Positions 86-10,120 of a stretch of DNA of 10,121 nt are shown piece after piece. Position numbers and translations under genes: made by a program. The notes under the pieces were generated by a model. It saw nothing but the letters and a program-made list of their open reading frames with translations, did no database searches and had not been told where the DNA came from. The stretch comes from Paracoccaceae bacterium (GTDB taxonomy: Bacteria > Pseudomonadota > Alphaproteobacteria > Rhodobacterales > Rhodobacteraceae): contig SKWJ01000390.1 in assembly GCA_007128995.1 (NCBI GenBank), positions 1 through 10,121 on the forward strand, given 5' to 3'. Each line of letters opens with the position of its first letter. Position 1 is the stretch's first letter.

Positions 86-3000
86 GACCAGCAAGCCTGC
101 GCCCGCCCCTGTGATCGCCAGCGCGGTAGAGAGGACAGCAGAATTGATCTGGGACAGGCTGTCTGCCTTGACCCTGATATCACCGACTGCGCTGTTCAAC
201 TCTGCGCCGTCGACCCGGGCGCGGCTGTCAGACATCACCGCATTGTTCGCAACCGCACCGGCGCCAGAGAACGACACTCCGACCCCCAACGCACCCGCCA
301 AGGCGACAGCCGCCGCTGCAGAGACAGCGTTGACCGTTGCCTCAAATGCCGACAGGATCCCACCGTCCAGACGGATGGTCCACTGTGCGCCCGTCGGATC
401 GGCGAGCGACCAGGCCCGTCCTTCCTCGAGCACCGAAAGTCGCAGGGCCGCAAGGGTCGTGACGTCCGTGGATGTGTCGCCCGTGACCGGCATTCCGGAT
501 GCCACAAGCGCAGCTTTCAGACGTCGCAGCACTTCCGCATCCGCAGCCATATCTGCCGGGTCGACCTTTTCGTCCGGTATGTCCTCGCCGAACTCGTCGC
601 GATCCGCCTGGGTCGTTTCCGTGACATCGAGGGTGGCAGCGCTGTCAAGTTCGGCTGCACTGGGAAGGTCCCCCGTCAGGGTGAAGCGATTTGCCTCGTC
701 CCCGGCGACCGCGCGTATCAGGATGCCGCTGCCGCCACGTCCGGGCGTGCCGTCTGCAGCAAGCGTGCCGCGTGCGGTGATTGTGCTGAATTCGGCCTCG
801 GCAAGAACGTCATTCCGGACTTCGTTCACCGATGACGCCGCCGCAACGCTGAAGGATACCGCCTTTCCGCCAAGCGTGGCAGCAAGGCCGATTGCACCGG
901 TTATCGCGTTGATACGGCTATCGTCCTGTGCGCTGATTTCGATACCGTCAGCAGTGACAGTCGAGCCGCGGATAATCGCTTTGGAACTTGCCGCAATGAA
1001 GTTGCTTGTCGAAGACCCGGCACCCGAGACACCGACAGCGACACCCCCAAGGGCGATCGCCCCGGCAACCGATGCCGTAACAGCATTGATCCGTTGCTCG
1101 CCGAGGGCCCGCACAGTCACTTCGCCGGCGTCCGCAAATATGACCGAGTCTGTGATCTCGGCAACGACGCCTGCCGAGGCGCGGCCCAGCCCGACGCGCT
1201 GCCATGACTGGGTGTCGGCATAATCCTGCACGGCCAGGAAGCTTTCTTCGACCCAGAGGGCACCGTCTGCTGCGCCAGTCAACGCTTCGGAAAGCGCGCT
1301 GCCCTCAAAGATCAGGACCTCGTCACCTACATTTTGCCAGATGCGCCCACTGGTCGTGTCAAGAACACGCTCGCCCGATTGCACCTGAAGCATGCCCGAA
1401 GACCACAGGTGATCGACGTAGTCGGCAGCTGCGATATCGCGCTGCCCGAGATATTCATAGATCTCTCCTTGGCGCAGACCTTCCGTGATCCGGACGGTGT
1501 CGCCCTTTCTGATCAACTGCGTCGGCGGCCCGTTCGTGGCGTGCATGGCCGTGTTGTCCGATCCGGGGACATAGCCGATTTCGTTATAGGCAACCGACAT
1601 GCCGATACCGACGCCAACGCCAACCCCGCCAGCCGCCGCGGCAATCGCGCCAGCGGCAACGACAGCATCGATACGTGACTGCGAGCGCGCCAAGACGCTG
1701 ACATCGCCAGTGTCAAGTTTAACGGACATGCCAAGTACCCGCGCAGCCGTATTGCTTGTGATCCTGTTGCCGGCACCCGCGCCGGCACCCGCGACGGAAA
1801 CCGCCTTTGCCCCCGCCGAAGCACTAAGCGATGCAGCAGCCGCGATGGCGCGTATCGCTGAATCATCCCTTGCACTGACCGTGACATCTCCGGAGCGGGC
1901 TCGGACAGTACCCGTACCTGCATTCTCTGTGGATTTGCGCGCAATTTCGGCGGTCACCGTGCTGGACACAGTGTTGACCGCAACCGTGCCGGCCAAGGAC
2001 ACAGCCACACCCAATCCACCGAAACCAAGTCCCAGTGCCAATGCCCCTGCGATGGCATCTATGCGTGACAGGTCCGCGGCATCGATGGTGATGCTGCCAA
2101 CGTCAATGTCGGTCGAACTGCCGAGAATAGCGGCCGAGGTCTCGCCACCAATCTGGTTGTTGACCGCGACGCCAGACCCGGCGACGGCCACACCTTTCAG
2201 GCCACCGGCAATTGCCGCAGCCCCCGAGAAGACCAGGGTGGCAATGTCCCTGTGCGCCTGTGCCGAAACCTCAAGGCTCTGGACAACAGCGTTACCGGAT
2301 GGGGTGCTGCCAAATGTGGTATTCTCGACCAGTGCATGCACTCGTCCGGCCGGGGTGTCCCCTCCCGGTGGCAAGCTGCCCGGATTGTCCAGACCGATGG
2401 AGTTGCGCGCCACCGAAGCGCCAAGCGCAACACCGACACCAACCTTGCCGAACCCCGCTGCCAGCGATGCCGAAAGGACGAACGCACCAATCCGCTGGCT
2501 GTCGCGCGCATCGACGGAAACACGGGACGCCGCACCATCAAGCTGGGTGTCGGAAATCCGCGCAATCGTATCGCTGTTGACCGCGTTGATTGCAACCGCC
2601 CCGGCACCAGCGACACCGACCCCGACCGCTCCGCCGCCGATGGCGATTGCAGCAGCACCCGCGACCGCCGTAATCGTTGCTCGCGCAGCCTCGAAACCAT
2701 CCGCCGAATGCCTGATGATAAACTGACGACCATCGGCATCGACCAGCGACCAGCGTTGACCGGCCTCGACCGCGGTCAACCGCAGGTCCCGCAGAACCTC
2801 GATATCAGTGCTGCCGTGGCGCACAGTCTCGCCTTGCGCGCGCAGGGCCGCTGCAAGGTTCCGCAGGATTTGCGCATCGCCGCGGCGATCCGCCGAGATT
2901 AGCGTCACTTCGCCGGCTGATGTCTCCAGCAGATACTGTCCGCCCTCAGAGAGCCGAAAGTGCCAGTCCTGATCGGCATTGTCCCGCAGCGTCCATGCAT

Positions 3001-6000
3001 CCTCGGCTCGACGGAGCAAGCTGAACTCCTGAACCACGGTGTTTCTGTCGGTCTTGGCAGGATCCAGTTCGCCGACCACATCCCCCCCTGCTGCAGCGAT
3101 CGCCTGCGCCAATGCAAAGATGACATCTGCAGATGCGTTTCGGTTCGGAGTTGCTGCTGTTTCGTCAAGTTCGTCCGGATCAGGCAGCACCTCTGCGCTG
3201 GACGCATCATCAAGCGCCTCCGCGCTTACCCAAGCTACTGAACGTGCCGGATCGGCACCACCAGAAATTGCGGCAATCCGTGCCTCGCCGCCTTCAGCGG
3301 TCAAACGCACCGTCGTATCCGCGACCGCAGCAGTGTTGACATTTTCCACTGTGTTGAAAGCCGTCGCCACGCCCATTGCCACGGACACGCCAACCTTGCC
3401 AAAGGCCGCCGCGACCGAGGCCGCCGCAGCAACCGCCGTGATCCGCGCGTCGTCGAAGGCGCGCACGCTCAGCACCGCAGCTTCGATCTTGCTACCGCTG
3501 ATGACGGCAGCAGGCGCAAGCGCAATACGGTTCACCACCACAGCGCCGCTGCCCGCGACGCCGATTCCGATCTTGCCGGCCGCAAGTGCCACCGCACCCG
3601 CAACGGTCACCGCATCGATCTGCCCGACACTTTCGGCGGTGACGTTAACCACCCCCACGGCAACGCTCACATCGCTGTCGCGGATCTCGGCCAGCACACC
3701 CGCGGCGCTGCGGGTAAGCGCGGTGCGCTGCCAGAAGTCCTGATTGCCGAAATCCTGCAAGTCAAGCAGGCTGCCCGCCCGCCACAGCGACTCGTCTGAC
3801 AGGTTCAGATCGTCAAAACTCACAGGGGTGAGGTCCGCGTCACCAAGGTAGCGGTAAAGCATTCCGGTGGCATGATTGAGCATGATCTCGCCCTGCACAA
3901 TCCGGGCGGGTAACGGAGCATTCGTCGCGTGATCCGCGAACTCGGCCGCACGCAGCGGCGCTTCAGCCACATAGCGGAAGGCCTGCCCGGATCGGATGCC
4001 TTCGTCGATATAGACGACATCGCCCGAAGCAATCGACATCGGCCTGCCAGTTGTCAGCACATGGTCGGGACCAAGTGCGCTTCGGTCCTGCTGCACAAAG
4101 CCGATGCTATTGATCGCGACAGCGCCGCCGATCGCCGCTCCCACGCCCACCTTGCCGGCTGCAACAGCTGCCGACGCCGCCACGACAACAGCACGGATGC
4201 GCGCATCACCGGCCGCACGAACCGAGAGATCCCCCGAAGCCAGCGCAAGATCGCTGCTGTCAATCCGCGCAGCAACGCCGCCGGTGATCCGGTTATCAGC
4301 AATGGCCCCGGCCCCTGCCACAGCAACACCCACCTTGCCGAAGCCTGCGGCAAAAGACGCCGCCGCCACAATCGCCGAAATCCGCGCAGTGTCGCGGGCC
4401 TCGATCCGGATCTCGGCGCCAGTTCCGGCCCCTTGGCCGCTCAGGCGCAGCCCGCCGGCAAGCCCGGACACTTCGGCTCGGGTTTCCGAGCTGATCACGT
4501 TGCGCGCAAAAGACCCTGCCAGCGATATCGCTACACCGGCCTTGCCGGCCCCGAAGGCAACCGAAGCCGCCCCGGCAAAGGCGCGGATTTCCGAACTGTT
4601 GGCGGCGCTGACCATTAGCCTGCCCCCCACGACCGAAGGAGCGTCGTCGGTAGCCACATCGCGGATGCCGGCACTGGCGTCCACGTCAATACGATTGAGC
4701 GCGACGGTGCCCGAACCCGAGATGGCAACTCCGGTCTTGCCGCCCGCAACCGCTGCGCTGCCGGCGAAGACGATCGCGTTGACAGCCTGCGCCGTGGTTG
4801 CAGAAACTACCACTGCGGCGGCGTCATCAAGCCCGAGCGTCGAGCCGATGATTTCCGCCCGCACGCCACCGTCGGCACCGAAAGCGGTAATGGAGTTGCG
4901 GGCGACCGCTGCGCCAAGCGACACGCCAACACCAGTTTTGCCCAGACCGACCGCAGCCGAAGCCATCAGCACGACCGCATCAACCGCGCGCGCATTCTCG
5001 GCGGTGACCGACAGCCCGCTTCCCAGAGACACAACCGCCAGTCGGGCGCCATCTAGTTCCAGACGATATGATACACCGGGCCCGCCATGCAGTTCCCAGA
5101 CCCCTTCGTCCAGACGCTTGAGGGAAATGTCCCCAGCGAGGATCGACGCTGCCAGTTCTGCCGGGCTGGCATCGCCAAAAGCCTGCGGCAGTTCCTCGCG
5201 CAGGGCTGTGATCAGTTCTGACAGAACGGCGGCGTCCGCGGCCCGGTCGACTGGATCGACGCGCGCAACCTCAAGCGCGCCATCCGCGTCGAAGGTCAGC
5301 CAGAAGACCTCTCCTGCCGCGTCGGTGATCGACCAGCCGCCTGCCAGTGCGGTGCCGTCGGGGCCAATCGGGTCGCCTTGCAGCAAGATGTCACCCGCAG
5401 TGATCTGTGCGGCGGTGGCGTCGATGTGGAGCGTCGCGTCAGCCGTCGCCCCGTTGATCGCCTCGATGACCGCGGCGAGCATCCGGGTGTCGGCCGCGGC
5501 GATACCCAACCGGGCGCCCGTGACGTCCGCGACAGACTGAACCCGTCGGAACTCCTCGATTGGCGCCGTGAAGTAAATGAAGCCAAACCTTCCTTGTACC
5601 GCCAGCTCGCCTGTGTCGGTAAAAAGGAAGATGACCATGAAGTCGCCGGAAACCCCATTTTCGATAAACCATTCGACCCCTTCGGGGGAGGAGGGTCCGC
5701 GCTCGATGGTCACAACACCGGAGTTGATCAACCCCTCATTGTAGTCGAACGGTTCGGGCGCCACCGGGTTAATTTCATCCAGCACGGCCAAAAGGATCGC
5801 GCCATCTGTAATGGCCGCATCGAGCGTTGCCGTGATCGCCCTTACGGTAGCCTCTACCGGCGACAGCGCAGGGCTTTCCAGCGCCAGTTGCACGATCTGG
5901 GTTTCGGTGGCGTTGTCGAGTTTCGCGGCCGTCAGCGCGCCAAGGGGCACATGGGTGCCGAGTGCGCTGCCCTCCACGACCGCGGCAACATCCTGGGCGA

Positions 6001-9000
6001 CGGCATTAAAGGCAAAGGCACCGGCACCAGAAACGGCAATTCCGCTCTTGCCGATCCCGACCGACAGCGACGCCGCTACCGCGATGCTGCGGATGCCCGG
6101 GGCCGACACCACCAGCCGGTCGCCTGAGATCTCAAGCCGGTAAAGCTCGCCCCGCGCGCCGTGCAGGGCCCATGCCCCCTCGCCGCGCTGGCCAAGCCGG
6201 ATTTCGCCGGCGGCGATGGCGGCGTCGATCTCGACCGGTCCGGCATCGCCAAAGGCTTCGGGCGTGCCGACGCGGATCGCATCGACCAGCGTGCGCAGCA
6301 CGGCGGCATCGGCGGCCCTGTCGGCGGGGTCGATACGGGTGACTTCCAGCGCGCCGTCATCGTCGAAGGCCAGCGCAAAGACCTCGCCTGCGGCATCGGT
6401 GATCGACCAGCCCTCGGCCAGGGCAACCCCGTCCGGATCCCGCGCGGCCCCGTCGAGGAACACGGTGCCATCGGTGATCTGGCCCGCGCTGGCGGCGATC
6501 CGCAGCGACGAGTCGGAAATCCCTGCGTTGATCGCATTGATTACCGTCTGCAGCGCGTCAGAATTGGTTTCGGCCAGATCGAGGGTGGTGGCGGTGAGCC
6601 CGGTGCCTTCCAGCGTGAAGGAAAGAATGCCGGTTTCGGTGGCATCGTCGAGCTGTTCCGCCGTCAGGCTGCCAAGCGCGACATCACCGACATCCGGCGC
6701 GGCCCCGCGCGCGGTGACCTGCACCTCGCCAGAGATCAGGATGGGGCCGGAATCGGCCACCCGCGCCGAAACTGTTCCGGCAATGTCATTGACCGCAACA
6801 GAGACGCCCACCGACACCGCGACCGCTGTCTTGCCGAAAGCTGCCCCGACCGAGCCGGCGATGGCGGTGGCGTCGATCCGGCTGTCGTCGAGCGCGGTCA
6901 CCGAAAGGCCGGCCGCCTCGGCTGAGATCAGGTTTGACACCAGCGCATCGGCACCTCCGCGGATACGGTTGGCGACCCCGACACCGGCGCCGCCCACGGA
7001 TACGCCGGTCTTGCCGCCAGTGAGCGCGAGAGTGCCGGCGATGATGGTTGCGTCGATGCGCTGTTCGTTCGTTGCGCTGACCGTCACCGACCCGGCGGCT
7101 GTGATCGCCGCCCCGTCGATGACCGCGCGCACAGCATCCGGAGCATCGGACAGATCGACTCGCTCCCAAAGGTCAGTATCGCCGAAATCCTCGATGGCAA
7201 GGTCGATGCCAACTGGCTGGCCGTCCTCTTCGATCAGATCGGAAGACCGTTCGTTACCCAAGAAGCGATAAAGATCGCCGGTGCGGGCATGTCCGCCGAC
7301 GACCCGCACGACATCCCCCTTTTCGAGGGTGACAGGCGTGTCGTCGCTGGTGTAGCGCGCTGCGGGCGCATCGGCGCGCGCCCGGAGACCAACCAGATTG
7401 TCGGCAACCGCAATACCAAGGCCGACCGCAGTGGAACTTGTCCGCGAGAGCGCAAGGTTGGCAACCGCCGCCAAAACTTCGGCATCGATCGACGCCACAT
7501 TTTGCGCCGTAACCGAAACATCTCCTGTCCGCGCCTCGATGCGGCCCACCTCGCGCATGCTGGCTTCAACACCTCCGGCCACGCGATTGACCGCGATGGC
7601 CCCGCCACCTGATAGCGGGGGAACCGGAATGCTAGGCGGGCTCGGAAGACCCGGCAGACTAGGAAGGAAGAAAAACGGCCCCCCGGTAGCGACGTTGAAG
7701 CCAATATTTGCGCCCAGTTCGGCGTCCCTGACAGTCTGATCTGTCTCGCTGTCGCCCCCACCGGAACCAGAGCCATCACTGCTGCCATCACCAGATCCGG
7801 AACCATCAGTGCTGTCGCTGCCCTGCTCGCCTTCGTCCTTCTTGCTTTCCCCGCCAAGGCTGACCGCCACCGCAACCGCTGTCGACCGTCCGGTGGCACG
7901 GATTTCAGCGCTCCGAACAGCCTCTGCCGCGATGGCGGCAGCCGCCAGCGTCGACATTTGAGTGACATCTGCAAGAACGTCGGAAATCAACTCGTTTCGG
8001 GCGAAGCTGGCAGCAAACGATGCCGACCTTGCGCCGGTACTTCCGGATATGCCGACCGCGATCGAACTCGCAAGTACCTCGGCGGTTATGGCGGCAGAGT
8101 CCTCTGCCCGGACCACAACCGCACCCGACGCCCCGGCCGATCCGCCCCTGATCACGGCACTGGCGGCGCTGGCAGAACGGTTCAACGCCACCACCGGCGC
8201 GATCGAGAGGCTGGCACTGGACTGCAATGTGATCGATGTCGCTATCGCCGCATTGCCGATGCGTGCCACTATTCCGGCGACCGAGTCAGCCGTCACCGAA
8301 ACACCCCCGCCCGAAACATCGAGCGTGCTGTCGATAATCCGGGCCTGGGCCGCGGCGCGGTCACTGCCGGACAGTGACGTGCCAAGGAAGGTGTCGACAA
8401 GATTGAAGAGCAGGTTCTGCGGCTTGTAACCGACAGCATTGAAGGCCAGCGTGATGCCGACGGCCTTGGAATCTCCACCACCGAAGACGGCGGTTTCTGT
8501 GTCGATATCGGCCTCTATTGTCGCACGGTTGGTGGCGTCGACCACGACATCGCCAGCTCTGCTCTTGATCGCGGCAGCCTCGATCTCGGCTGTTGCGCTG
8601 CCCAGAACCAGGTTGGTCGCAATGTTGACATTGACGCCCAGCGTGCTTCCGCCGACAAAGACAGAACCGCCCGAAACCAGGACATGGCCCTTGTTCAGCG
8701 CGTTCAGCCGCGACTGGTTGTCGGCAGTGACCGAAACACCATCGGCGCCCGATGGTGCAGCACCGGCAAAGCTCATGCCAGCGGCATCGACATGCATGTT
8801 CGTCAGCCGGGCCAGTGTTTCGCCGCGCACGTCATTCACCGCCTTCAGCCCTGCGACGGCCGAGCCATCCGAACTTGAGGCGTTCAGGCTCAGCCAGTTG
8901 GGGATCAGGTCAAGCAAAGAGCCTGACGGAAGCTTCAGCCAGTCGCTGCTGCGGTAATCGACCGCGGCAAGATCGACGGTCGTACGAAAATCTACCGATG

Positions 9001-10120
9001 ATCCGGATGTGGGCGTCCAGCGCGACGTGTCGCCAAGATCGGCCGCCGTCAGCGCGCCGAGGTCGATTTCCTCTTCAGACCCGTTGAAAACGAAAAGGCT
9101 TCCGCGCGGCAACAGGACGGTGCCATCGGTGTCGGTGATTACTTCGCGGATATAAAGCCTGTCACCGGGCTGCAGGGTCTGGACCCCGGATTGTAGCGTA
9201 TAGGCGCTATTGGCCAGATAGAGCAGCAGATCGCCTTCGGAGAAATCTCCCTCAAGCGTTTCGGCATTTGAGCCGATCCGCACGATGTCACCGAACTGCA
9301 AGTTCTGCGCGCCCGAGAAGGTTGTGTAACGGTAACGCTTTGCGGCATCTTCGAGGAAGGCATAGATCAGATCGACGCCAAGGCGGTTCTCGACGCTGGT
9401 CTTGAATTCCAGTGTGTTGGTCGCGTTGATGACGGCACTGTTGACGGCATCGACCGTCACACCGCCAGCAGCGCGGATGCTATTGGCGGCAGCTGTATTC
9501 CCCTCGACCACCGCCCTTGCGCCCGCCGACACCTTGTTGGACGTCAGTACCAAACCCATTGTGCTGCCTGAGGCCCCTTTCAGCGCCCCGGCCTCGCTGG
9601 TGGTCTCGTTCGACAGAAGTGCCTCGATCCGGGCGGAATTCACCGCCATCACCGACACAGCGCCAGCAGCGGCCAGGTCCGAGCGTTCGACCAACGCCAC
9701 CGCATCGGCCGGATCCTCGCCATTGAAGGCCTCCGAAACTTCAGGCGAGCCGATCAGCGCATCGACAGTATTGAACAGCACGTTGGAGGGTCGCCAGCCG
9801 ACGCTGTTGAACGCCAGGGTCAGGTTGCGCGCCTTGTCGCCGGTTTCGGCAGTAAAGCTGGTCACGGCTGAAAAACGCGTATCGTTGCGCGCGGACACGG
9901 TCACATCACCTGCCGCGCCAAAGCTTTCATCTGCTCCGACCTCCAGCGCAGCAGAAGCGAGCCCGGCCGTTATCTGCGAGCCGACCACCCGGGCCAGAGC
10001 GCCGCCAAGCTGGACATTGGTGGCGATCGCGCCGCCATATGCGTTGCTTTCACCATCTCCCAGAGCGGAGCCGCCCGAGGAGGTCACCTCGCTGTCAACC
10101 TTTGCCAAGAAAAGCGATTC
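2..10120 (-). CDS. Internal part of a giant repetitive secreted/surface protein, open at both ends
   Basis: One minus-strand frame is open across the entire window: 3373 codons, no stop, and neither the true start nor the true stop is present. Translation gives a coherent, low-cysteine, Ala/Gly/Val/Asp-rich protein made of about 27 related cores of roughly 61-69 residues, interrupted by Tyr-rich (Y) and Trp-containing (W) modules. Typical core text is a polar turn with 'S/D-x-R-I-x-A', then 'AFGKVGVGVS-AGAVA-N-I', then 'A-I-x-x-S' and a 'GDVxVxA' strand. The alternating small/hydrophobic pattern suggests repeated beta strands, as in beta-solenoid or filamentous exoproteins. I saw no RTX GGxGxDxUx nonapeptides, no membrane segments and no enzyme motif in this part. 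The absence of cysteine and the great length fit a type I or two-partner secreted adhesin-like protein, but no secretion signal is in view. A LEPR-XLL-type Rhodobacterales exoprotein is my best family guess, from motif style only. No frameshift was found. Confidence 0.96.
86..358 (-). repeat. Superrepeat 3, core 26 and start of core 27
   Basis: Core 26 reads 'LGVGVSFSGAGAVANNAVMS' with its aligned Asn codon at 242-244, the counterpart of cores 10 and 18. It is followed by 'GDIRVKADSLSQINSAVLST' and the opening of core 27 ('ALAITGAGAGLL'), which then runs into a Gly/Ala-rich stretch. The superrepeat therefore continues beyond the window. Confidence 0.8.
359..667 (-). repeat. W4: shortened acidic Trp module (103 aa)
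   Basis: Starts 'LPSAAELDSAATLDVTET', followed by an acidic run at 533-619 (12 Asp/Glu in 29 residues, including 'DRDEFGEDIPDEKVD'), then 'AEVLRRLKAALVASG' and 'GRAWSLADPTGAQWTIRLDG'. The first Trp sub-unit seen in W3 ('AWTLRDN...') is missing, which explains the shorter length (103 against 178 residues). The conserved Trp codon of 'AWSLAD' is at 410-412. The acidic patch is plausible as a solvent-exposed or cation-attracting segment, but no defined metal motif is present. Confidence 0.8.
668..1186 (-). repeat. Superrepeat 3, cores 24-25
   Basis: Conserved Asn codons start at 1001 and 824, 177 bases apart as in cores 16-17. Core 24 reads 'GGVAVGVSGAGSSTSNFI' and core 25 reads 'GGKAVSFSVAAASSVNEV'. 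The connecting strand 'IEISAQDDSRINAITGAI' keeps the DD-S-R-I phrase found at the same place in superrepeats 1 and 2. Ser replaces Ala and Val at several strand positions, making these more polar than their counterparts. Confidence 0.85.
1187..1573 (-). repeat. Y3: doublet Y module (129 aa)
   Basis: Starts 'YVPGSDNTAMHATNGPP'. The first half is 'IRKGDTVRITEGLRQGEIYE' followed by 'YLG'. The second is 'VQSGERVLDTTSGRIWQNVG'. It ends with 'VQDYADTQSWQRVGL', matching 'LQDFGNQDFWQRTAL' at the end of Y2. The second half has Trp where Y2 has Tyr. The near-equal length and same register as Y2 show that the doublet was duplicated as a unit. Confidence 0.85.
1574..2695 (-). repeat. Superrepeat 2, cores 18-23
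   Basis: Six cores with conserved Asn codons starting at 2585, 2402, 2156, 1973, 1766 and 1583 (steps 183, 246, 183, 207 and 183 bases). Texts are 'AVGVGVAGAGAVAINAV', 'FGKVGVGVALGASVARNSI', 'KGVAVAGSGVAVNNQIGG', 'LGVAVSLAGTVAVNTVSS', 'AVSVAGAGAGAGNRITSN' and 'VGVGVGIGMSVAYNEIGY'. The 246-base step comes from a Pro/Gly loop after core 19 ('LDNPGSLPPGGDTPAG'). The 207 and 183 steps between cores 21-22 and 22-23 equal those of cores 13-14 and 14-15. Only core 19 keeps an exact GK. Confidence 0.88.
2696..3229 (-). repeat. W3: Trp module (178 aa)
   Basis: Opens with 'VSAEALDDASSAEVLPDPDE', the diverged counterpart of the 'LTAEQLDDATET' start of W-A. It contains two Trp sub-units, 'EDAWTLRDNADQDWHFRLSE' and 'GQRWSLVDADGRQFIIRHS', separated by 'RRGDAQILRNLAAALRAQGE'. 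The order of the sub-units resembles W-A, but the sequence has drifted. The acidic opening (DPDELDET) is shared in character with W4. It lies between cores 17 and 18, exactly where W-A lies between cores 9 and 10. Confidence 0.8.
3230..3715 (-). repeat. Superrepeat 2, cores 16-17
   Basis: Conserved Asn codons start at 3530 and 3353, 177 bases apart. Core 16 is 'AGKIGIGVAGSGAVVVNRI' and core 17 is 'FGKVGVSVAMGVATAFNTV'; the strand between them is 'LSVRAFDDARITAVAAAAS'. Before core 16, following Y2, is the phrase 'RSAAGVLAEIRDSDV', which recurs after Y3 as 'RASAGVVAEITDSVI'. Core 17 leads into W3 through 'AEGGEARIAAISGG'. Confidence 0.85.
3716..4099 (-). repeat. Y2: doublet Y module (128 aa)
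   Basis: Starts 'FVQQDRSALGPDHVL'. The first half-unit is 'ASGDVVYIDEGIRSGQAFRY'; the second is 'VQGEIMLNHATGMLYRYLGD'. It ends with 'LLDLQDFGNQDFWQRTAL'. The two halves each have the G-[DE]-[IV]-x-x-[IL] ... G-x-x-[FY]-R-Y plan of Y1, so this is an internal tandem doublet. Its length is within one residue of Y3. Its terminal Trp codon (3731-3733) lies 3435 bases from that of Y1 and 2529 bases from that of Y3. Confidence 0.85.
4100..5026 (-). repeat. Superrepeat 1, cores 11-15
   Basis: Five uninterrupted cores with conserved Asn codons starting at 4895, 4694, 4499, 4292 and 4109 (steps 201, 195, 207 and 183 bases). All five carry the GK signature: 'LGKTGVGVSLGAAVARNSI', 'GGKTGVAISGSGTVALNRI', 'AGKAGVAISLAGSFARNVI', 'FGKVGVAVAGAGAIADNRI' and 'AGKVGVGAAIGGAVAINSI'. 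Each resembles the core at the same position in superrepeat 2 (cores 19-23). For example, core 11 and core 19 share 13 of 15 residues over 'GVGVSLGAAVARNSI', and core 14 and core 22 share 12 of 18 over 'GAGAIADNRITGGVAARI'. Core 15 runs into Y2. Confidence 0.9.
5027..5950 (-). repeat. W-B: expanded second Trp module (308 aa)
   Basis: Begins 'VPLGALTAAKLDNATET', the counterpart of the start of W-A. After the insert at 5525-5767 it resumes the W-A plan: 'AAQITAGDILLQGD', 'GWSITDAAGEVFWLTF', 'DRAADAAVLSELITAL', 'QAFGDAS' and 'VWELHGGPGVSYRLEL'. The Trp codon of GWSITD is at 5333-5335, 1074 bases from its partner at 6407-6409. This module has no positional equivalent in superrepeat 2, so W-A plus W-B looks like a local tandem duplication followed by gain of an insert in W-B. 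Confidence 0.85.
5525..5767 (-). other. Aromatic-rich unique insert in W-B (81 aa)
   Basis: This stretch includes 'PFDYNEGLINSGVVTIERG', 'EGVEWFIENGVSGDFMVIFL' and 'QGRFGFIYFTAPIEEFRRV'. I count twelve aromatic residues in 81, against nearly none in the cores. It has no counterpart in W-A, W3 or W4. The local nucleotide sequence is visibly less GC-rich than its flanks, with several AT-ending codons (for example ATT, AAT, TTT). It reads like a small beta-sandwich-like inserted domain rather than a transmembrane helix, because charged and Gly residues break every hydrophobic run. Function unknown. Confidence 0.7.
5951..6100 (-). repeat. Superrepeat 1, core 10, between two W modules
   Basis: A single core: 'IAVAASLSVGIGKSGIAVSG' continuing 'AGAFAFNAVAQDVAAVVEGS', conserved Asn codon 6005-6007. 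It is the counterpart of core 18 ('GVGVAGAGAVAINAVNS') and core 26 ('GVGVSFSGAGAVANNAVMS'), all ending in NAV. In the other superrepeat this position is followed directly by the next core 183 bases on; here W-B intervenes and the next core Asn is 1110 bases away. Confidence 0.8.
6101..6682 (-). repeat. W-A: Trp module (194 aa)
   Basis: Begins 'VALGSLTAEQLDDATET', followed by a 'LEGTGLTATTLDLAETNSDA' segment, then 'SAGQITDGTVFLDG', 'GWSITDAAGEVFALAF', 'DRAADAAVLRTLVDAI', 'EAFGDAG' and 'AWALHGARGELYRLEI'. Over 6242-6535 it aligns without gaps to W-B (5168-5461) with 62 of 98 residues identical by my count. The W-S-[IL]-x-D-x-x-G-x-x-[FW] element is shared with W3 and W4. It separates core 9 from core 10. 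I do not recognise a named domain; no catalytic motif is visible. Confidence 0.85.
6683..7150 (-). repeat. Superrepeat 1, cores 8-9
   Basis: Conserved Asn codons start at 6968 and 6788, 180 bases apart. Core 8 reads 'GGKTGVSVGGAGVGVANRI' and core 9 reads 'FGKTAVAVSVGVSVAVNDI'. Between them is the linking strand 'LSVTALDDSRIDATAIAG'. These correspond to cores 16-17 and 24-25, where the equivalent spacing is 177 bases in both cases and the text 'DD-[AS]-R-I-x-A' is kept. Core 9 leads into Trp module W-A, just as cores 17 and 25 lead into W3 and W4. Confidence 0.85.
7151..7366 (-). repeat. Y1: single-copy Y module (72 aa)
   Basis: The module contains 'LEKGDVVRVVGGHARTGDLY' followed by 'RFLG', then 'GIDLAIEDFGDTDLWERVDL'. 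The signature is GD-x-V-R-[IV], a short loop, G-x-x-[YF]-x-[YF]-[LV]-G, then 'DL', an acidic-aromatic 'DFGDxDxW' and a final W-x-R. Y2 and Y3 contain two tandem versions of the first half, but Y1 has one; it is 56-57 residues shorter. It opens superrepeat 1 and lies between core 7 and core 8. Confidence 0.8.
7601..7684 (-). other. Pro-rich hydrophobic insert inside core 6 (28 aa)
   Basis: This segment reads 'GGPFFFLPSLPGLPSPPS' followed by 'IPVPPLSGGG'. It has nine prolines in 28 residues with a short Phe cluster, and sits immediately before the second half of core 6 ('GAIAVNRVAGGVEA'). With the Ser/Gly/Asp linker (7730-7849) it forms an insertion of about 80 residues within one core. It resembles an exposed Pro-rich hinge; it is too short and proline-broken to be a membrane segment. 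Confidence 0.8.
7730..7849 (-). other. Ser/Gly/Asp-rich flexible linker (40 aa)
   Basis: Forty residues that start with a charged 'ESKKDEGEQGSDS' and continue as Gly/Ser/Asp repeats such as 'DGSGSGDGSSDGSGSGGG'. It follows the strand 'STAVAVAVSLGG', which would be the first half of core 6, so the linker interrupts a core rather than separating two cores. The composition predicts a disordered, acidic and flexible segment. Asp and Gly are abundant, but the spacing is not that of RTX nonapeptides, so I do not call calcium binding. Confidence 0.85.
8381..8449 (-). repeat. LAFN/VLFN motif, copy 2
   Basis: Twenty-three residues beginning 'LAFNAVGYKPQNLLFN' and ending 'DTFLG', aligned without gaps to copy 1 at 9749-9817. 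The two copies are 1368 bases (456 codons) apart. The upstream strand 'AGDVVVDATNRATIEADI' also matches 'AGDVTVSARNDTRFSAV' ahead of copy 1, which supports duplication of a larger block rather than of the motif alone. Confidence 0.8.
8930..9340 (-). repeat. Y0: Tyr/Trp-rich linker module (137 aa)
   Basis: A non-core stretch starting 'KRYRYTTFSGAQ'. It contains successive short beta-like units: 'FGDIVRIGS', 'EGDLLLYLANSAYTL', 'PGDRLYIREV' and 'PRGSLFVFNGSEEEIDL'. It ends with two Trp segments, 'DTSRWTP' and 'VDYRSSDWLKL'. The GD-[IR]-[VL]-x-[IV] units followed by an aromatic and a D-x-x-W tail match the plan of modules Y1, Y2 and Y3, although this copy is the longest and most diverged. Directly after it comes 'DLIPNWLSLN', then 'AVNDVRGETLARL', which leads back into a core-like strand. 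Tyr, Trp and Phe are concentrated here, whereas cores are almost free of aromatics. Confidence 0.7.
9341..10120 (-). repeat. Cores 1-2 with first LAFN motif
   Basis: This is the most N-terminal part visible. Core 1 has its conserved Asn codon at 10016-10018 (text 'GGAIATNVQLGGALARVVGS') and core 2 at 9536-9538 ('GLVLTSNKVSAGARAVVEG'). Both lack the GK signature of later cores. Between them are the strand 'AGDVTVSARNDTRFSAV' and a longer non-core element beginning at 9817. The segment parallels 8720-8300, where the same order (core, 'AGDVVVDATNRATIEA' strand, LAFN motif) recurs, so it looks like one copy of an N-terminal duplication. The protein continues upstream beyond the window edge. Confidence 0.8.
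9749..9817 (-). repeat. LAFN/VLFN motif, copy 1
   Basis: Twenty-three residues beginning 'LAFNSVGWRPSNVLFN' and ending 'DALIG'. They align without gaps to copy 2 at 8381-8449 ('LAFNAVGYKPQNLLFN' ending 'DTFLG'). The pattern is LAFN-x-V-G-aromatic-x-P-x-N-x-L-F-N-x-V-D-x-x-[LI]-G. It is much better conserved than the flanking sequence and is not part of the core consensus, so it is probably a distinct structural element such as a cap or kink. I recall similar text in other giant marine-bacterial exoproteins but cannot name a domain family. Confidence 0.8.

Follow-up and report, generated by a model that had tools for sequence, protein, structure and literature searches.

The stretch of DNA analyzed here, referred to below as the window, consists of the entire 10,121-nucleotide (nt) contig SKWJ01000390.1 (C269) of a Paracoccaceae bacterium (assembly GCA_007128995.1; 545 contigs, 79% complete). 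It is filled by a single stop-free frame of 3373 amino acids (aa) on the minus strand, open at both ends, in which repeated cores of ~57 to 60 residues alternate with two kinds of larger modules, Y and W. The basic period of this protein and its relatives is four cores, of types a, b, c, and d in that order, and the period of eight seen in the window is a harmonic of it, marked out by the Y and W modules. This rhythm is shared across bacterial phyla and, judged from the sequences, looks like an old building rule rather than a result of recent copying in this gene. The best explanation of the whole, which we favor with some reservation, is that the window codes for the central part of a LEPR-XLL-type giant with a solenoid shaft, a four-beat order of cores, decorated units, and the role of an adhesin. 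The protein itself belongs to a known kind; the new part is the four-beat order, the favored slots for Y and W, and their spread over phyla. No description of a register of this kind was found in the open-license literature, as judged from listings retrieved with a few terms; the name LEPR-XLL occurs in two of the papers, once in each.

The original prediction, made from the DNA letters, was of a higher-order superrepeat, locked in register, that had arisen through the copying of ~840-residue blocks. A core profile built from the window's own cores recovers the predicted cores 8 to 26, and the layout of a Y module, 2 cores, a W module, and 6 cores is real. The conserved Asn codons are spaced exactly as had been quoted, at 180, 177, and 177 bases for cores 8-9, 16-17, and 24-25; 579 and 582 bases across Y, for cores 15-16 and 23-24; 207 bases for both 13-14 and 21-22; and 183 bases for both 14-15 and 22-23. 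The terminal Trp codons of Y1, Y2, and Y3 are also where they had been placed (they begin at 7168, 3733, and 1204). However, the lock is partial: four of the eight positions agree within 3 bases and the other four do not. Among the spacings that had not been quoted, cores 10-11 are 1110 bases apart, with a second W module between them, versus 183 for cores 18-19; cores 11-12 are 201 bases apart versus 246 for cores 19-20; the value for cores 12-13 is 195 versus 183; and the W spans between cores 9-10, 17-18, and 25-26 disagree (783, 768, and 582). Likewise, the block size of ~840 residues fits unit 2 (cores 16 to 24, 843 aa) but not unit 1 (cores 8 to 16, 1146 aa), which is longer because it has the second W module.

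Likeness between the 19 window cores was expressed as the mean BLOSUM62 score per column and compared with 5000 free shuffles and 5000 shuffles that kept odd and even positions apart. Cores that are eight apart (11 pairs) score 2.03, a value not reached in any shuffle of either kind, and 12 of the 19 cores find their best match within the window in the core eight away. The scores at lags 4, 2, and 1 are 1.73 (P = 0.0004 with free and 0.06 with parity-kept shuffles), 1.63 (0.009 and 0.34), and 1.36 (0.85 and 0.09), respectively. Of the predicted pairs, 11/19 and 15/23 match best in both directions, and 13/21 and 14/22 do so in one direction only. In a tree of the cores (56 columns, 1 of 16 inner branches starred), the n/n+8 pairing is present, in the pairs 18-26 (support 98/94), 15-23 (85/75), 9-17 (76/46), and, weakly, 12-20 (70/8), and no clustering of neighboring cores is found. 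The best-supported rival pair, 21-25 (90/83), joins cores that are four apart, and cores 8, 12, 16, and 20 form a clade with a support of 87/90; it was in these two groupings that a four-core period first showed.

The order of cores was then followed in other proteins. When window residues 1000 to 3307 were searched against 5.8 billion proteins, 61 of the 1870 candidates scored had E values of ≤0.001; their named sources include Chloroflexi, Chthoniobacteraceae, Pirellulaceae, Oculatella and Anabaenopsis (cyanobacteria), Methylobacterium, Ilumatobacteraceae, and Solirubrobacteraceae. Cores, Y, and W were mapped in these 61 proteins, in the window, and in contig C300 of the same genome, which encodes a related giant. 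The labels a to d were trained on 11 proteins and tested on held-out ones; cores with fewer than 40 filled columns were omitted from the label test and those with fewer than 35 from the count of slots, and a protein needed 12 or more full cores to enter the label-free test. Of the 927 adjacent cores in 51 held-out proteins, 714 step one forward in the a-b-c-d order; the count over all successive cores is 843 of 1161, whereas 2000 parity-kept shuffles averaged 502 and never exceeded 563. More than half of the pairs step forward in 44 of the 50 held-out proteins with at least 8 adjacent pairs, and the 14 held-out proteins without a Y hit show 195 forward steps in 296 pairs. The label-free test gives the same period: at lag 4 the mean z score is 5.9, with z of >2 in 48 of 50 held-out proteins and a z of 10.1 in both Oculatella (P0017) and Methylobacterium durans (P0030), and the same 50 proteins yield mean z scores of 3.3 at lag 8 (z of >2 in 36 proteins), 3.2 at lag 2 (39 proteins), and −0.8, slightly below random, at lag 1 (none). 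The period of eight in the original prediction is the harmonic of this beat, with Y and W decorating every second one, and had been read correctly from the raw sequence.

In the held-out proteins, 40 of the 71 Y-bearing inserts are located at the d|a junction and 16 at b|c, and 3 of the 4 inserts with W only are at b|c. Thus, Y favors d|a and W favors b|c, and these slots are favored, not exclusive. A count that weighs against this two-slot arrangement is that of all inserts of at least 60 residues in the same proteins, of which 122 of 216 lie at neither junction.

Between successive Y modules, eight is the most common number of cores (22 of 64 intervals), followed by 2 and 6 (12 intervals each), as expected of a Y-2-Y-6 arrangement. 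A large insert follows core 2 in 16 of the 22 eight-core units, and these 16 come from 11 proteins, including the window; the Y-2-insert-6 layout is therefore found in 10 proteins besides the window, two of which have a named taxon (P0001, Chloroflexi, and P0010, Chthoniobacteraceae). Pieces of P0006 are nearly identical to a Verrucomicrobia contig (L023, described below). The exceptions are four of the five units of P0001, with the insert after core 7, one unit of P0003, with no insert, and one of P0008, with the insert after core 6; these six units were omitted from the tests of the remaining 16. In those, cores at the same position in different proteins score 2.38 per column, other pairs of the same parity score 1.84, and pairs of the other parity score 1.26, whereas the largest value in 2000 parity-kept shuffles was 2.04. 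The next most alike positions are 1/5 (2.12), 2/6 (2.10), 3/7 (2.25), and 4/8 (2.33). Given this likeness of position n to position n+4, the eight-core block is a doubled four-core block, a-b-c-d-a-b-c-d. Between proteins, the same position scores higher than the position four away at all eight positions, with positions 4 and 8 hardly distinguishable.

These comparisons bear on a simpler history, in which a block of ~840 residues was copied twice in this lineage and the likeness of cores n and n+8 reflects the age of that event. We regard this as unlikely, although several observations fit it. Same-position cores resemble each other somewhat more inside one protein (2.68 per column) than across proteins (2.38); in the tree of units, the two complete units of the window join with a support of 81/80, at 47% identity, unit 1 being the nearest to unit 2; and units 1 and 2 of P0004, at 67% identity and a support of 100/99, are clearly recent copies. 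However, window unit 1 is equally close to a unit of P0003 (48%), and the branches that join units 1 and 2 are long (0.9 and 1.53), so that copying within the gene, if any, took place long ago. A DNA repeat search of the window found no copies longer than 53 nt, and the period of four is wider in its distribution than the period of eight. The layout appears to be old, given that Y-2-insert-6 recurs in the 10 other proteins, including those from Chloroflexi and Verrucomicrobia. The proposed duplication of ~840-residue blocks is thus supported in part, by the n/n+8 pairing and the within-protein likeness, whereas the presence of the layout elsewhere, the basic period of four, and the loose register of unit 1 with its extra W argue against it.

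Another possibility, which we find somewhat easier to entertain but still doubtful, is that the geometry of the stack makes neighboring cores differ and every fourth core alike, in which case the periodicity would be convergent and silent on duplications. Such a constraint would be consistent with the results for the held-out proteins, where likeness of neighbors is never significant, the period of four is found in 48 of 50, lag 4 exceeds lag 8, and forward stepping persists in the absence of Y. It would also agree with the divergence of neighboring repeats in other multidomain proteins, which, according to the abstract of PMC4660218, helps avoid misfolding. In the window, on the other hand, lag 8 exceeds lag 4 (2.03 versus 1.73), and in the 16 units every position is more like its own counterpart in other proteins than like the position four away; period-four geometry alone does not produce this excess. 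Finally, the cores do form a single repeat family, and some of the equal spacings (183 bases) simply reflect the default length of a core, as they would in ordinary tandem repeats copied one core at a time, with the register a matter of chance in the positions of the inserts. This is highly improbable: adjacent cores of the window are no more alike than shuffled ones, and lag-1 likeness is never significant in the 50 relatives, which speaks against single-core tandem copying as the sole explanation.

Growth by whole beats, the course of events that we prefer, can be pictured as follows. Two a-b-c-d beats make up one decorated unit in this part of the protein, with Y at the d|a junction as its opening and W placed at the first b|c junction and reaching into it, which yields the order Y-2-W-6 and the period of eight cores. 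The array would have grown long ago by the copying of whole beats or pairs of beats with the phase kept, which would explain the likeness at lags 4 and 8 and its lack at lag 1. The giant is probably located on the cell surface, where the shaft would hold Y modules at regular steps, with Y and W being the parts likely in contact with the outside, and where it could work as a multivalent adhesin. More speculatively, the fixed four-coil beat with its two favored slots might make the shaft a molecular ruler, with binding modules displayed at every eighth coil; the step of the ruler would be ~4 nm if one core is one coil of the usual rise. A rule of this kind, if true and common to several phyla, would mean a new principle by which giant bacterial surface proteins grow without losing register. 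The annotation of giant genes from uncultured bacteria often goes no further than a repeat protein without a known function, and the phase-keeping order of four core types offers a grammar for parsing such giants, checking broken assemblies, and selecting units for expression, while pointing at Y and W as the probable outside-contact parts.

The shaft of cores is predicted from structure models to be a β-solenoid, perhaps with one coil per core. Among the best fold matches of these models are the SufB/SufD β-helix, the curli protein CsgA, and the functional amyloid FapC, with 5 to 15% identity in the aligned parts; the likeness is in the stacked β coils, and we know of no inserted modules at fixed slots in any of these proteins. 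Titin (connectin) provides an analogy, without a claim of kinship, as a giant repeat-domain protein with a higher-order register; it is built of separate Ig and Fn3 domains, whereas the model here is a continuous solenoid. Very large extracellular proteins with a predicted β-solenoid and a proposed role in adhesion are Giant1 to Giant5 of Apilactobacillus kunkeei (PMC12863079). In the portions of that paper available to us, the solenoid of Giant1 to Giant4 is a single N-terminal domain followed by a long α-helical repeat rod, and a register like the one reported here is not described for Giant1 to Giant5.

In the model, Y3 bears a weak resemblance to chitin-binding domains and to modules of phage tailspikes. 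It aligns with 1ed7, 1ur9, and Vibrio chitin deacetylases, in most rows over 43 to 47 residues at 2.2 to 2.8 Å; we take the chitinase A1 domain (1ed7) and the respective parts of chitinase B (1ur9) and of the Vibrio deacetylases to be CBM5/12 modules. No Pfam CBM family was matched by any of eight Y-bearing rows at E values up to 10, a search in which HMMER filters drop most matches above ~0.1. When Y was searched together with two cores, Pfam matches were weak and scattered, the best being DUF7407 (E = 0.013) in one of the eight rows. A PDB sequence search with the A1 probe returned a single match, a phage portal protein with an E value of 0.67, and model 2 had no match at E ≤ 0.001 in a viral structure library.

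The proposed assignment to LEPR-XLL giants comes from two NCBIfam models; the Pfam search of the window protein returned zero matches. NF012206 (LktA_tand_53), a model of a 53-residue repeat of filamentous proteins, matches the window in 16 stretches with 253 bits and an E value of 1e-76, passing the curated cutoff of 50 bits. Contig C300 encodes the first 1356 residues of its giant, which starts with the LEPR-XLL domain NF012209 (LEPR-8K; 30.3 bits, cutoff 17) and contains three NF012206 stretches that are below the cutoff of that model (27.5 versus 50 bits). Window aa 14 to 280 are 36% identical to aa 928 to 1173 of the C300 giant (E = 8e-26), so the N-terminal zone of the window (zone 1) is common to both. 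The window lacks the N terminus, where an LEPR-XLL motif would sit, and its C terminus, where a type I secreted adhesin would carry its secretion signal, likewise lies off the contig. The two contigs could not be joined by end overlap, the longest shared strings being 12 bases at the facing end and 14 bases along the whole frame strand. The window thus resembles the LEPR-XLL giants with LktA_tand_53 repeats in the NF012206 matches of its cores, in the LEPR-XLL start of its neighbor in the same genome, and in having a Verrucomicrobia relative with LEPR letters near the start. In contrast, the two models are confined to a single repeat of 53 residues and a short motif at the N terminus and include neither the four-beat order nor the Y and W slots. 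Upstream of the LEPR-XLL start, C300 also carries a SapC-family gene (L012, 814 to 1602) and an HlyD-like gene (3 to 959), a possible lead to the secretion route. Among the best 120 SapC relatives listed, the closest named ones belong to Rhodobacterales such as Cereibacter (61%) and Yoonia (55%), which points to an alphaproteobacterium as the probable source.

At the genome level, a contig scan with a W-centered probe confirmed no relative, and a scan with three close rows (A2) yielded two loci, neither of them independent of the protein hits (L023 by its near identity to pieces of P0006, L022 by comparison with P0046). The locus L023 (JAIPJX010000007), from a Verrucomicrobia MAG, has an open frame of 14,542 residues that carries LEPR letters close to its start, followed by a zone 1 resembling the window's, two copies of Y-2-W-6, and the start of a third unit; the decorated zone is in the first third of the frame. 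It is followed by a second frame of 2577 residues, kept separate here, the start of which, by eye, reads like Ig-like repeats. L022, a Pirellulaceae contig of 15,827 bases, ends within a Y-2-W unit. Of 60 genomes of the same genus, the W-centered probe matched just the source genome, and the A1 probe matched it and three others, the latter in the core part only. These three (L040, L041, and L042) encode giant frames of 5294 (with LEPR letters), 5846, and at least 3818 residues with scattered cores; the stretches that were read yielded hits to neither Y nor W. A class-wide search matched 1 of 289 genomes, again the source genome, with at most 11 candidates scored per listed genome. Since both searches matched the Y/W zone in the source genome only, the decorated zone seems to be rare in this clade. 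Horizontal transfer and a misbinned contig were both considered; codon usage of the window (correlation of 0.95 with the C300 giant, 0.98 with a giant from the same genus, G005, and 0.93 with the Verrucomicrobia giant) and G+C content (0.64 in the window, 0.59 in C300) do not decide the matter.

All parts of the window are on the minus strand and are listed here from the N-terminal side. Zone 1 (7358 to 10120) consists of more degenerate cores and one Y-like stretch (within aa 236 to 417), and two of its cores have a long tail of the NAVGYxPxNLLFNxVD type. Together with positions 5296 to 9363 of L012, it seems to have a larger repeat of its own, made of tailed cores and Y-like stretches. A Ser/Gly/Asp-rich linker (7709 to 7843, aa 760 to 804) breaks the run of cores, and the next core contains a Pro-rich stretch. 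Unit 1 starts with Y1, a shorter form of 88 aa (7094 to 7357), and continues with core 8 (position 1, type a; 6932 to 7093), core 9 (position 2, type b; 6749 to 6910), the 213-aa module W1a (6110 to 6748), and core 10 (position 3, type c; 5963 to 6109), whose start is displaced by W. Next comes W1b, the extra, longer W module of 315 aa (5018 to 5962), which breaks the register of this unit, and then cores 11 to 15 at positions 4 to 8 (4085 to 5017), labeled d, a, unclear, c, and d. W1a and W1b are therefore separated by one core, and their neighborhoods are linked by the longest direct repeat found in the DNA search (53 nt, 75%, spacing 732). Unit 2 comprises Y2 (143 aa; 3656 to 4084), cores 16 and 17 at positions 1 and 2 (a and b; 3311 to 3655), W2 (208 aa; 2687 to 3310), and cores 18 to 23 at positions 3 to 8 (1541 to 2686), labeled c, b (off beat), a, b, unclear, and d. 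Unit 3 includes Y3 (138 aa; 1127 to 1540), cores 24 and 25 at positions 1 and 2 (a and b; 779 to 1126), W3, a shorter form of 142 aa (353 to 778), and core 26 at position 3 (c; 200 to 352). The start of core 27 (56 to 184) runs into the Gly/Ala-rich stretch that the frame enters at the contig edge (1 to 110), where the low complexity of the sequence may have stopped the assembly.

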